The notes under the pieces were generated by a model, which was not told where the DNA came from, did no database searches, and was given only the letters and a program-made list of their open reading frames with translations. From Poseidonibacter ostreae (GTDB lineage: Bacteria > Campylobacterota > Campylobacteria > Campylobacterales > Arcobacteraceae), in contig NZ_WFKJ01000001.1 in the NCBI RefSeq assembly GCF_009208075.1, positions 62,001 to 126,000 of the forward strand: a stretch of 64,000 nt of DNA, written 5' to 3'. Of this stretch, positions 1 through 62,928 are shown piece after piece (positions within the stretch are counted from its first letter, which is position 1; each line of letters begins with the position of its first letter). A program made the position numbers and the translations under genes.

Positions 1-186
1 TCATTTTTTAATAATAAAAGAAAAGACAATACTCATAATTTGAGTTTTAATTATGTATATAATATTAAAAAAGATGATGCAATTAGTTTATCATCTTCAT
101 TTAATAGAAATAATTCTAATCAAGATGCATATTCATATGAAACATTTGAAACAAAACTTAATTATATAAAAAAATATAATTGGTAA
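1..186 (+). CDS. C-terminal end of an outer-membrane beta-barrel protein (Slam-like), partial
   Basis: Frame 1 is open from the window edge to a TAA at 184-186 and gives 61 residues. Alternating polar and hydrophobic residues, many Asn/Ser/Tyr, and a final strand ending in Trp mark the last strands of an outer-membrane beta-barrel. The segment RNNSNQDAYSY followed by a last strand resembles, as I remember it, the end of the DUF560 barrel of surface lipoprotein assembly modifiers (Slam), which move TbpB-like proteins to the cell surface. The next gene carries two TbpB-like barrels, which supports this. The N-terminal part lies outside the window, so the family call is an inference. Confidence 0.5.
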   Translation, partial: SFFNNKRKDNTHNLSFNYVYNIKKDDAISLSSSFNRNNSNQDAYSYETFETKLNYIKKYNW

Positions 187-204
187 GAAGAAAAAAGGAA
201 AAAA

Positions 205-2064
205 ATGAAATTATTAGTATTAATACTATTATTTACAAATATTCTATTTGCTAATATTGGAAAAATTGTATCATTAAAAGGTGAAGCAACTATTACAAGG
301 GACAGTAAAACATTTGAAGTTACAAGAGATACTTATTTAAAAGAAAAAGATACCCTCATAACAAAAAACAATTCAAAAGTCCAAATTCTTTTTAAAGATG
401 AAACAATCATTTCTATTGGTAAAAACTCTATATTTAAAATTAATGACTACTTATTTGAAGATAAAAATAACGTAAATGCAGAATTCTCTATGATAAAAGG
501 TGTATTTAGAACTATTACTGGAAAAATTGGAAAAATCGCACCTCAAAACTTTAAATTAAAAACAAAAAGTGCTTCAATTGGTATTCGTGGTACTCAAATA
601 ATCACAGACTTATCAAATGGAAAAGAAAGAATATTTTGTACAGAAGGACAAATTGAGATTACTCAAACTTCAACAAATTTAAAAATCCTTGTAAATAAAG
701 GTGAATTTGTTGATATGGAAAAAAACAATGGTAATTCATTACAAAAAAATAGAACAAAAACAAAAGATTTAAAAGAAGTGAATGAAGATATATCCGTAAG
801 TGAAAATAAAGCACAAGATACTGCAACAGAAAAAGAAGATATTGAAACAACTGAAACAACTGAAACAACTGAAACAACTGAAACAACAGAAACAACAGAA
901 ACAACAGAAACAACAGAAACAACAGAAACAACAGAAACAACAGAAACAACAGAAACAACAGAAACAACAGAAACAACTGAAACTACTGAAGTAAGTGTTA
1001 ATACAGCAGATGATAATATATTGGAAAGTACTAACACCTTAGAGGAAACAGCTAAGGAGGAGGAAATAACACAAGAGGCTCAAGAACTTGCAGATGAACT
1101 TGCAGCAGAAGAAGCACAGAGACTTGCAGATGAACTTGCAGCAGAAGAAGAAGCTCAAAGACTTGCAACTTTAGAAGAACTAGGTAAAGAGCAAGAAGAA
1201 GCAGCTGATGCATTAACAGACAGTTTAGAATTGATTACTCCAGATTCTTTTTATACAAACAATACAAGTAAGGCAAGTTACCTTGGAACATTTAATGAAA
1301 ATAGTTTTGACTCGCAAACACAATATTATAAAAAAATAGGAAATAACGATAGGTTATTAATTCCAACAGACACTACAATTTCTATGGATATTGACTTTGG
1401 TAAAGATGATGATCAAGTAACAAATGGAAAAGTTTCTGTATCAGGTTATGCAGATTTAGAATTTGATGGTTATTTTAAAACAGATAATACATTAAAATTA
1501 AAAGCAGCAAATAGTACAGTAGGTGACGGTGGAGATGCTACTTTCTTTGGCTCTGAAGCAAATATTATAAGTGGAGATATTAAGTTACAAAATGATGAGA
1601 TTAAACTTGAAGGTGAATTTGATGCTGAAAAGTATGAATACGGAGATATTGATGAAATTACAAATACAGATTACTTTATAAATAATACATCAACAGCAAC
1701 ATACACTGGTAATTTTAATAGTACAAGATATGATGAAAGTTCACAATATAGCTCATCTTACTTTAATAAAAGTGCAATTGACCAAAATACAACTATTTCA
1801 ATGGACATTGATTTTGGAGCAACTCAAGATCATATAACTAATGGTAAGATTGATATGGTTTCTGTGCCAGATTTTGAATTTACTGGTCATATTAACCAAA
1901 ATAATGTTAGCTTATCTGGTGGAGATTTATGGGGAAGTGGAAGTGCAAAGTTTTATGGGAATGAAGCTAATACAATGAAAGGAAATGTTTATTTTCAGAA
2001 TTTAACTAATAGTATAAAAGGTGACTTTGAAGCGAGTAAAACTACTGCAGATCAAGCAAATTAA
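205..2064 (+). CDS. FecR-domain protein with (ETT)16 tract and two TbpB-like barrel repeats
   Basis: This 619-residue protein starts at an ATG behind an AAGGA ribosome site. Residues 1-16 are a signal peptide (cleavage after LFA, no lipobox Cys). Residues 20-170 look like a FecR domain (SIGIRGTQ near 124-131). Residues 214-261 are sixteen Glu-Thr-Thr triplets, followed by an Ala/Glu-rich linker. From about 348 a 136-residue unit occurs twice; each has ISMDIDFG, then FFGSEAN (near 448) or FYGNEAN (near 583), then a closing strand near GEF or GDF. This is like the TbpB/hemophilin barrel signature. It is probably an exported or surface protein handled by the upstream Slam-like barrel. No ligand can be inferred. 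Confidence 0.7.
   Translation: MKLLVLILLFTNILFANIGKIVSLKGEATITRDSKTFEVTRDTYLKEKDTLITKNNSKVQILFKDETIISIGKNSIFKINDYLFEDKNNVNAEFSMIKGVFRTITGKIGKIAPQNFKLKTKSASIGIRGTQIITDLSNGKERIFCTEGQIEITQTSTNLKILVNKGEFVDMEKNNGNSLQKNRTKTKDLKEVNEDISVSENKAQDTATEKEDIETTETTETTETTETTETTETTETTETTETTETTETTETTETTETTETTEVSVNTADDNILESTNTLEETAKEEEITQEAQELADELAAEEAQRLADELAAEEEAQRLATLEELGKEQEEAADALTDSLELITPDSFYTNNTSKASYLGTFNENSFDSQTQYYKKIGNNDRLLIPTDTTISMDIDFGKDDDQVTNGKVSVSGYADLEFDGYFKTDNTLKLKAANSTVGDGGDATFFGSEANIISGDIKLQNDEIKLEGEFDAEKYEYGDIDEITNTDYFINNTSTATYTGNFNSTRYDESSQYSSSYFNKSAIDQNTTISMDIDFGATQDHITNGKIDMVSVPDFEFTGHINQNNVSLSGGDLWGSGSAKFYGNEANTMKGNVYFQNLTNSIKGDFEASKTTADQAN
844..987 (+). repeat. 9-bp tandem repeat, 16 units (GAAACAACW, Glu-Thr-Thr)
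   Basis: Sixteen 9-bp units run without interruption inside the FecR-domain gene. The first four and fifteenth end in ACT, most of the others in ACA, and the last is GAAACTACT. The unit is a multiple of three, so gain or loss of copies changes protein length, not frame. The long open frames on other strands and frames here are products of the repeat. Confidence 0.97.
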
Positions 2065-60961: not shown

Positions 60962-62092
60962 ATGGCAAGAGAACTAATTTCAACAGGAAATGAATTAGCA
61001 GCAAAAGCTGCGCTTGACTCTGATGTTGAGTTTTTTGGGGGATACCCTATTACTCCATCTAGTGAAGTAATGCATATATTATCAACTGCATTACCAGCTA
61101 GAGGACATGCATGTATCCAAATGGAAGATGAAATTTCAGGAATTTGTACAGCATTAGGTGCTGCAATGTCTGGAAAAAGAGCATTAACAGCAACAAGTGG
61201 ACCTGGTATTTCTTTAAAAGCAGAAAACTTAGGGGTAGGATATATTTCTGAAATACCTTTAGTTGTAATCAATGTAATGAGAGGTGGTCCATCAACTGGT
61301 TTACCAACAAGAGTTGCACAAGGTGACTTATTACAAGCTAAAAATCCTACTCATGGTGATGTTAAATCAATCACTTTAGTACCAGGAAATTTAAATGAGT
61401 GTTATACAGAAGTTGCACGTGCTTTTAACTTAGCAGATAGATTTATGCAACCTGTATTTGTTTTATTAGATGAAACAATCGGTCACATGAGTGGTAAAGC
61501 TACTATTCCTGATTTAGAAACAGTACAAGCTGAAAAAATTTCTAGAAAGAAATTTGAAGGTGATAAGAAAGATTACAAGCCATATGATTGTGAAGATGAT
61601 CAACCAGCTGTATTAAATCCAATGTTTGAAGGTTATAGATACCACTTCACTGGTTTACATCATGGACCAACTGGACATCCAACTGAAGATGCTGATACTT
61701 GTGATGCTTTAATGAGAAGATTATTCAATAAAGTTGATGCACATATGGACGAAGTTGAATTAAATGAAGAGTATATGTTAGAAGATGCTGATATTATGAT
61801 TATTGCGTATGGTTCAGTTTCTTTAGGTGTAACTGAAGCTATTAACAGAATGAGAAAAGAAGGTATCAAAGTTGGTATGTTCAGACCAAAAACAATTTGG
61901 CCAAGTCCTGCTAATAGAATTAATGAATTGATGAAAAAATTTGACAAAGTATTAGTTGCTGAGTTAAACATGGGTCAATTCTCTGATGAAGTACAAAGAG
62001 TAAGTGGAAGAAATGACTTTGATAGATTATACAAAGTTAATGGTAGACCATTATCTCCACTAGAAATAATAGAAAAAGTGAAGGGAATGTAA
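60962..62092 (+). CDS. oorA: 2-oxoglutarate:acceptor oxidoreductase, alpha subunit
   Basis: 376 residues. GGYPITPSSEVMH, QMEDEISG, LTATSGPGISLKAENLG, NVMRGGPSTGLPT and GSVSLGVTEAINRMRKEGIKVGMFRPKTIWP are the pyrimidine-binding and domain II motifs of the KGOR/PFOR superfamily. The alpha subunit forms the thiamine diphosphate site together with OorB. The gene is 2 bp upstream of oorB. Confidence 0.97.
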   Translation: MARELISTGNELAAKAALDSDVEFFGGYPITPSSEVMHILSTALPARGHACIQMEDEISGICTALGAAMSGKRALTATSGPGISLKAENLGVGYISEIPLVVINVMRGGPSTGLPTRVAQGDLLQAKNPTHGDVKSITLVPGNLNECYTEVARAFNLADRFMQPVFVLLDETIGHMSGKATIPDLETVQAEKISRKKFEGDKKDYKPYDCEDDQPAVLNPMFEGYRYHFTGLHHGPTGHPTEDADTCDALMRRLFNKVDAHMDEVELNEEYMLEDADIMIIAYGSVSLGVTEAINRMRKEGIKVGMFRPKTIWPSPANRINELMKKFDKVLVAELNMGQFSDEVQRVSGRNDFDRLYKVNGRPLSPLEIIEKVKGM

Positions 62093-62094
62093 TT

Positions 62095-62928
62095 ATGGCA
62101 TTTAATTATGATGAATATTTAAGAACAGACAAAATGCCAACACTTTGGTGTTGGGGATGTGGTGATGGAGTTATTTTAAAATCTGTAATTAGAGCAATTG
62201 AAAAAACTGGTTGGAACATGGACGATGTTTGTGTTGTTTCTGGTATTGGTTGTTCAGGAAGATTCTCTTCATATATCAACTGTAACACAGTTCACACAAC
62301 TCACGGTAGAACTTTAGCATATGCAACTGGAATTAAATTAGCTAATCCAGAAAAGAAAGTTATCGTTGTTGGTGGTGATGGTGATGGTCTTGCTATTGGT
62401 GGAAACCATACAATCCATGCATCAAGAAGAAATATTGATTTAAATTATATTATTATCAATAACTTCATTTATGGATTAACTAACTCACAAACTTCTCCTA
62501 CAACACCACAAGGTATGTGGACAGTTACAATGAGTAAAGGAAATATTGATCCAACATTTGATGCTTGTAAATTAGTAGAAGCTGCTGGTGCATCTTTTGT
62601 TGCTAGAGAAACTATGTTAGATCCTAAGAAATTAGAAAGAATTTTAGTAAAAGGTTTCCAACATACAGGATTCTCATTTATTGAAGTATTCTCTAACTGT
62701 CACGTTAACTTAGGTAGAAAAAATAAAATGGCAACAGCTATGGCTAACTTAGAGTGGATTAAATCTATTTCTGTTGGAAAAGCTAAGTTTGAGAAATTAG
62801 AAGCAGAAGAGCAAGTTGGAAAATTCCCATTAGGAATTTTAAAACATGATGAAAATGCACCAGAGTACTGTCAGTCTTACGAAAAAGTAAAAGAGGCTAA
62901 TAGAACTAATACAATGATTCAATTCTAA
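62095..62928 (+). CDS. oorB: 2-oxoglutarate:acceptor oxidoreductase, beta subunit
   Basis: 277 residues. WCWGCGDG near the start holds one Fe-S-type Cys pair, the TPP motif is GGDGDGLAIGGNHTIHASRRN, and TTPQGMWT and CHVNLGRKNKM fit the beta subunit. It binds the diphosphate of thiamine diphosphate. It follows oorA by 2 bp and precedes oorC by 11 bp. Confidence 0.97.
   Translation: MAFNYDEYLRTDKMPTLWCWGCGDGVILKSVIRAIEKTGWNMDDVCVVSGIGCSGRFSSYINCNTVHTTHGRTLAYATGIKLANPEKKVIVVGGDGDGLAIGGNHTIHASRRNIDLNYIIINNFIYGLTNSQTSPTTPQGMWTVTMSKGNIDPTFDACKLVEAAGASFVARETMLDPKKLERILVKGFQHTGFSFIEVFSNCHVNLGRKNKMATAMANLEWIKSISVGKAKFEKLEAEEQVGKFPLGILKHDENAPEYCQSYEKVKEANRTNTMIQF

Follow-up and report, generated by a model that had tools for sequence, protein, structure and literature searches.

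The first 2,064 bases of a 64,000-nucleotide stretch of the genome of Poseidonibacter ostreae, a marine relative of Arcobacter (the window; bases 62001-126000 of contig 1 in a 2.96-Mb draft genome) hold the end of a gene for an outer membrane protein (OMP) and a complete gene for a protein that combines a FecR domain, a stalk and two C-terminal barrels. We computed the domain make-up of the protein and the architecture of the OMP, the homology and fold of the barrels, the conservation of the gene cluster and co-variation; on sequence grounds, the two genes appear to encode a genuine and conserved cargo/exporter pair that resembles the Slam, or type 11 secretion system (T11SS), pairs and is linked to cyclic AMP (cAMP) signaling. 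The interpretation we favor, with a probability of roughly 55%, is that this pair forms the outer portion of a system for cAMP sensing that also includes a CHASE2 adenylate cyclase (AC) and a cAMP phosphodiesterase (PDE) of the metallo-beta-lactamase (MBL) type. The gene cluster itself is already known; what is new is the identity of its outer-membrane half. The original prediction described a barrel end followed by a FecR-stalk-repeat protein, which is confirmed in full, and interpreted the two as a Slam exporter with an unusual substrate; of this interpretation, the barrel and OMP parts stand but the intact exporter and the unusual design do not.

The two 136-residue repeats of the window protein share 38% identity, and the alignment of residues 341-476 with 477-612 scores 246, compared with a maximum of 70 over 1000 shuffles. 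As originally noted, both repeats carry an FxGxEAN motif (FFGSEAN and FYGNEAN) followed by a closing strand. When compared with the Protein Data Bank (PDB), a profile of the barrel family (32 members) matched TbpB (E = 1.7e-10) and NHBA (7e-8), as well as LbpB, hemophilin and fHbp, and the matches outside the known Slam/T11SS cargo amounted to three weak ones with E-values of 0.4-0.95. The Pfam domain TbpB_B_D is matched by 29 of 48 relatives, with the window protein, at 23.9 bits, falling just below the Pfam cut-off of 26 bits; the NCBIfam model for Slam-dependent lipoproteins matches 14 of 30 relatives, the inspected scores being below the cut-off of the model. In the predicted structure, residues 335-619 form two 8-strand barrels (predicted local distance difference test score, pLDDT, 88.9), and a fold search with these barrels found the C-terminal domain of NHBA as the nearest structure (Z 13.6, 2.2 A over 115 residues), with fHbp (Z 12.5), TbpB and hemophilin also matched. 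As judged from this model, the repeats fold as Slam-cargo barrels, in line with the TbpB/hemophilin-like barrels proposed initially, and no other fold emerged. The protein is not TbpB proper: it has no lipobox, and Pfam yields only FecR and TbpB_B_D, without the TbpB_A and TbpB_C handle domains.

A genome scan yielded 436 relatives, from which 80 related loci were retained, 67 of them with complete FecR proteins; the barrel domain was found in 86 of 300 relatives searched. An extreme C-terminal barrel (tail of 0-21 aa) was detected in 49 of the 67 complete FecR proteins, a lower bound because about six of the proteins scored as barrel-less (L119, L121, L128, L137, L161 and part of L148) appear by eye to have a divergent barrel. 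In 57 of the 67, an OMP gene lies on the same strand at a distance of no more than 300 bp, mostly directly upstream, and both features occur together in 43, which are the FecR-TbpB fusions beside Slam-like OMP genes that had been sought. The FecR-barrel design is conserved and recurs across Campylobacterota, so that it is neither an oddity of one genome nor the unusual substrate design initially assumed. In addition, tandem OMP-FecR pairs were observed in Hydrogenovibrio, a gammaproteobacterium (L162), and in one genome (G009) two FecR proteins flank a single OMP (L044 3-8372 and 9915-12776), one of the open reading frames (ORFs) being at least 2790 aa long; these arrangements suggest duplicated cargo per exporter.

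The FecR domain (PF04773, residues 49-151, E = 9.8e-14) is the most conserved part of the protein, with a mean identity of 44% across loci, whereas the stalk (residues 205-340; 41 Thr and 39 Glu among 136 residues) varies freely in length and sequence between relatives; the early description of a FecR domain and a Thr-rich stalk on the same chain is accurate. The N-terminus is hydrophobic and, by inspection, compatible with a Sec signal. No cysteine is present near the N-terminus and a regular expression search detected a lipobox-like motif in none of the 80 relatives, in agreement with the lack of a lipid anchor noted at the outset. According to the profile search, the genome encodes no second twin-barrel protein of this type. 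The PF04773 match could also be taken to indicate a classical FecR of an extracytoplasmic function (ECF) sigma factor/TonB receptor system, with unrelated C-terminal repeats. This possibility is already contradicted by the anatomy of the protein, where an N-terminal signal peptide replaces the cytoplasmic anti-sigma part, and we consider it highly improbable, given also that no FecI sigma factor or FecA receptor gene adjoins the FecR-barrel gene and that its conserved neighbors encode the AC, the PDE and the OMP with tetratricopeptide repeats (TPR).

The OMP of this genome was searched in its pieces (see below). A profile of the OMP family built from 29 relatives matches positions 61638-62177 of the contig, i.e., from upstream of the window start to base 177 of the window, with an E-value of 2.5e-14, which assigns the 61-residue fragment to the TPR-OMP family; its identification as DUF2860, for which the Pfam match is weak (E = 0.001), was rejected. 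TPR families are present in all 29 OMP members that were scanned first, TPR_Slam was detected in 24 of 62 OMP relatives, and SlipAM in 16 of the 62 at E<1e-3 (best 7.3e-13), with several partner OMPs exceeding the curated Pfam cut-off for SlipAM. The OMP piece from the own genome matches TPR_Slam with an E-value of 2e-4, under the cut-off, and the OMPs of this genome and its nearest relatives (G001, G003 and G004) belong, by profile, to the same family as the other partner OMPs. The OMP accordingly appears to be a distant Slam relative, and the label 'Slam' applies to this particular gene by transitivity. The anticipated Slam exporter, with DUF560 and TPR in the upstream extension, was found in part: the TPR and barrel OMP is there, but SlipAM/DUF560 is seen in relatives only, the OMPs of the own genus being under the SlipAM cut-off. 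The AlphaFold2 model of the intact OMP of a relative consists of TPR repeats and a barrel of 14 long strands (barrel pLDDT >90), and 14 is also the number of strands in the Slam barrel. A fold search for a more specific relative of the OMP did not discriminate, the top matches being the generic 14-strand porins CymA and OmpG along with TPR proteins, and a SlipAM match alone was rejected as proof of Slam given that TPR-less barrels of about 310-340 aa match as well. In 4 of 29 members (L002 8513-9586 and relatives from the same genus), the Slam-like OMP carries an N-terminal SPOR domain, which binds peptidoglycan.

In the own genome, and in many relatives with sufficient flanking sequence, the genes next to the OMP/FecR pair encode a CHASE2 AC and an MBL-GAF-HD protein that matches PDEase_II. 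The four-gene cluster of CHASE2 AC, cAMP PDE, FecR protein and TPR protein, reported in Campylobacterota by Mo et al. (2022; PMC9239204), is present here with all of its members; according to the passages of that paper covered here, the genes are the same four and a common signaling pathway was already proposed for them. In contrast, those passages draw no link to Slam/T11SS or to TbpB barrels, whereas here the TPR protein is identified as an OMP with TPR and a 14-strand barrel, and the FecR protein as a cargo with TbpB/NHBA-like barrels. Co-variation was analyzed with distance matrices for 27 non-redundant loci and for further sets of 36 loci and, with the PDE, 19 loci. In the 27 loci, the strongest partial correlation of the FecR domain is with CHASE2 (0.45), compared with 0.02 for its own C-terminal barrel and -0.03 for the catalytic domain of the cyclase; the bootstrap interval for rho(FecR, CHASE2) minus rho(FecR, catalytic) is 0.07 to 0.48. 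The FecR-CHASE2 value is 0.42 in 36 loci, and in the 19 loci with the PDE as a control it is 0.46, versus -0.12 for the PDE. Among the partners of the C-terminal barrel, the OMP's TPR domain ranks first (0.32 in 27 loci). This pattern, a correlation among related loci, fits a FecR domain that would face the inner-membrane sensor and a barrel that would face the exporter. An apparent FecR-CHASE2 cyclase fusion (L111 5983-9246), at first sight direct proof of contact, was rejected as an assembly artefact: its ORF crosses a run of N within the repeat stalk, where the assembly has a gap, and the reading frame changes there. A Campylobacterota contig (L084) encodes a CHASE2 cyclase, a TPR-OMP and a further cargo-like ORF and is more divergent than the others; since it looks G+C-rich by eye, contamination or transfer is possible.

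Several observations weigh against the proposed identification. SlipAM gave no match in the OMP of the own genome or in those of G001, G003 and G004, and no Slam barrel structure is among the fold matches of the OMP, the fold of which supports a 14-strand barrel only. Two TPR-less Campylobacterota barrels (L083 1117-2043 and L091 1006-2022) exceed the Pfam cut-off for SlipAM, which calls for caution regarding its specificity, unless they represent another barrel family. The co-variation sets of 27, 36 and 19 loci share ancestry, and the partial values are modest. Finally, about seven FecR proteins are paired with an OMP and truly lack a visible barrel; because such proteins still have this partner, the OMP may have a role beyond export.

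From the results above we infer export, orientation, CHASE2 contact and signaling as follows. The FecR-barrel protein would be exported by Sec and cleaved by signal peptidase I (SPI), after which the OMP's TPR domain would bind its C-terminal barrel domain, which would then pass outward. With the barrels outside, the FecR domain would remain periplasmic, touching the CHASE2 sensor and possibly retaining the chain as a plug; the stalk would span the OMP, and the barrels would form the tip or the ligand-binding end. The CHASE2 AC and the MBL-type cAMP PDE would be the inner parts of the system. The location of the pair in a CHASE2 AC/cAMP PDE cluster suggests signaling rather than plain cargo display.

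The lack of a lipid anchor leads one to expect release of a T11SS cargo. Under such a scenario, the protein would be a soluble cargo that is fully exported and either released or loosely bound, similarly to hemophilin, with FecR as a tip effector and the cyclase link reflecting co-regulation only. Secretion of unlipidated T11SS cargo with an SPI signal is on record (PMC8406197), and the absence of a lipobox and the C-terminal location of the barrels are compatible with this scenario; nevertheless, the co-variation of FecR is far stronger with the periplasmic sensor CHASE2 than with the barrel on its own chain, and the AC and PDE genes recur in this cluster across the phylum, both in the loci compared here and according to PMC9239204, so that we regard released cargo as rather unlikely.

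A retained N-terminus would account for anchoring without lipid, and a possible lead in this direction is that the FecR domain, over its first half, weakly resembles the retention module of LapA and MpAFP (NF033682; PDB 5ix9). Weak NF033682 matches were found in 24 of 30 members (best 4.2e-7), all under the curated cut-off, with the window protein at 15.9 bits against a cut-off of 50, and the best PDB match of the FecR domain is 5ix9, an antifreeze-protein chain (E = 0.032) that we take to be the MpAFP retention region. Unlike the present system, LapA and MpAFP employ type 1 secretion, not T11SS. A more novel form of the favored interpretation, an unreleased T11SS cargo in which the periplasmic FecR serves both as plug and as CHASE2 ligand, the stalk passes through the Slam-like barrel and the TbpB-like barrels are outside, together making a trans-outer-membrane cAMP receptor across Campylobacterota, is only a tentative proposal.

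It is also conceivable that there is no export at all and that a periplasmic protein uses its TbpB-like domain to dock on the TPR part of the OMP, whose barrel would itself be the receptor, as proposed for NsrA. The covered passages of PMC7529298 describe NsrA as a beta-barrel OMP that is the outer-membrane receptor for, and is required for signal perception by, the CHASE2 cyclases of S. meliloti; in the window family, the TPR domain is the best co-variation partner of the C-terminal barrel, and the barrel-less FecR proteins are OMP-paired as well. Conversely, the barrel domain family is known from surface or secreted proteins only and its extreme C-terminal position corresponds to the place where T11SS cargo has its export signal, which makes this scenario doubtful. 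The NsrA system with CyaD1/D2/K (PMC7529298, PMC5498481) resembles the pair described here in placing a beta-barrel OMP upstream of CHASE2 ACs, but in the parts covered no TbpB-type cargo is reported there; the FecR protein SMc02177 is listed in those of PMC5498481 among the targets of Clr, the regulator tied to these cyclases. A LysM-FecR protein and a CHASE2 histidine kinase are encoded together in Burkholderia (PMC5192318).

The pair shares with the T11SS/Slam systems (DUF560, PF04575; PMC8406197, PMC12282271, PMC5449769) the juxtaposition of a TPR and barrel OMP with a protein that has a C-terminal 8-strand barrel. It differs from TbpB, NHBA, fHbp and hemophilin in that a FecR domain, attached to a variable stalk, is the effector, and its setting is cAMP signaling rather than iron/heme and TonB. 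These three papers do not mention FecR, and the 2017 Slam survey among them omitted epsilonproteobacteria from its neighborhood analysis.

In this genome, the expectation of a working exporter beside its cargo fails, as an IS1634-family element and a frame change disrupt the OMP gene. The first piece (L002 8513-9586) encodes SPOR, TPR and the barrel start, the second (L002 11342-11962) is followed by the frame change ahead of window base 1, and between them lies an IS1634-family transposase (NF033559, 352 bits). The element is single-copy, with identical 329-bp direct repeats at L002 9231-9559 and 11214-11542. IS1634 and IS1549 generate long direct repeats of 8-514 bp, for which, according to PMC2266710, no mechanistic model had been proposed; the present repeats are a clear case of these long, variable target duplications. 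The gene is intact in relatives, and a profile search of the genome detected no second OMP-family copy, only weak partial matches. The OMP-cargo pair probably does not function in this genome, where decay of the module is likely; because the OMP gene is broken, either the system is inactive or the FecR-barrel protein remains periplasmic, as seems probable. In G002, a 100% complete genome of the same genus, no FecR-barrel relative was found, whereas G001, G003 and G004 have one, so the module may be repeatedly lost or decaying within the genus.

Table 1. Features of the OMP/FecR-barrel gene pair (window coordinates unless marked L002)
Feature	Position	Strand	Basis or remark
Last 61 codons and stop (184-186) of the Slam-like TPR/14-strand beta-barrel OMP gene	1..186	+	Profile search
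Remainder of the OMP gene, upstream of the window	L002 8513-11962		Holds IS1634 element; frame change
Protein of 619 aa with FecR domain, stalk and twin barrels; predicted cargo of the T11SS (Slam) type	205..2064	+	ORF, Pfam, profile and fold searches
Sec signal peptide MKLLVLILLFTNILFA, signal-peptidase-I type, without lipobox	205..252	+	Inspection; lipobox regular expression
FecR domain PF04773	349..657	+	Pfam match; weak LapA/MpAFP retention module similarity
Low-complexity Thr/Glu stalk	817..1224	+	Composition
9-bp tandem array, 15.6 copies, in-frame, encoding (ETT)n	844..983	+	
First TbpB/NHBA-like 8-strand barrel domain	1225..1632	+	Repeat identity, predicted structure
Second, C-terminal TbpB/NHBA/fHbp-like 8-strand barrel domain	1633..2040	+	Profile and predicted structure

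Slam/T11SS has been studied mainly in host-associated bacteria, in connection with iron and heme capture, and the signals of CHASE2 cyclases are largely unknown; the system proposed here links the two, which are unconnected in the covered parts of the cited literature. If this proposal is correct, many free-living Campylobacterota would have a cAMP receptor whose outer half consists of a Slam-like OMP and its cargo, and simple deletions could then be used to test the input of CHASE2.
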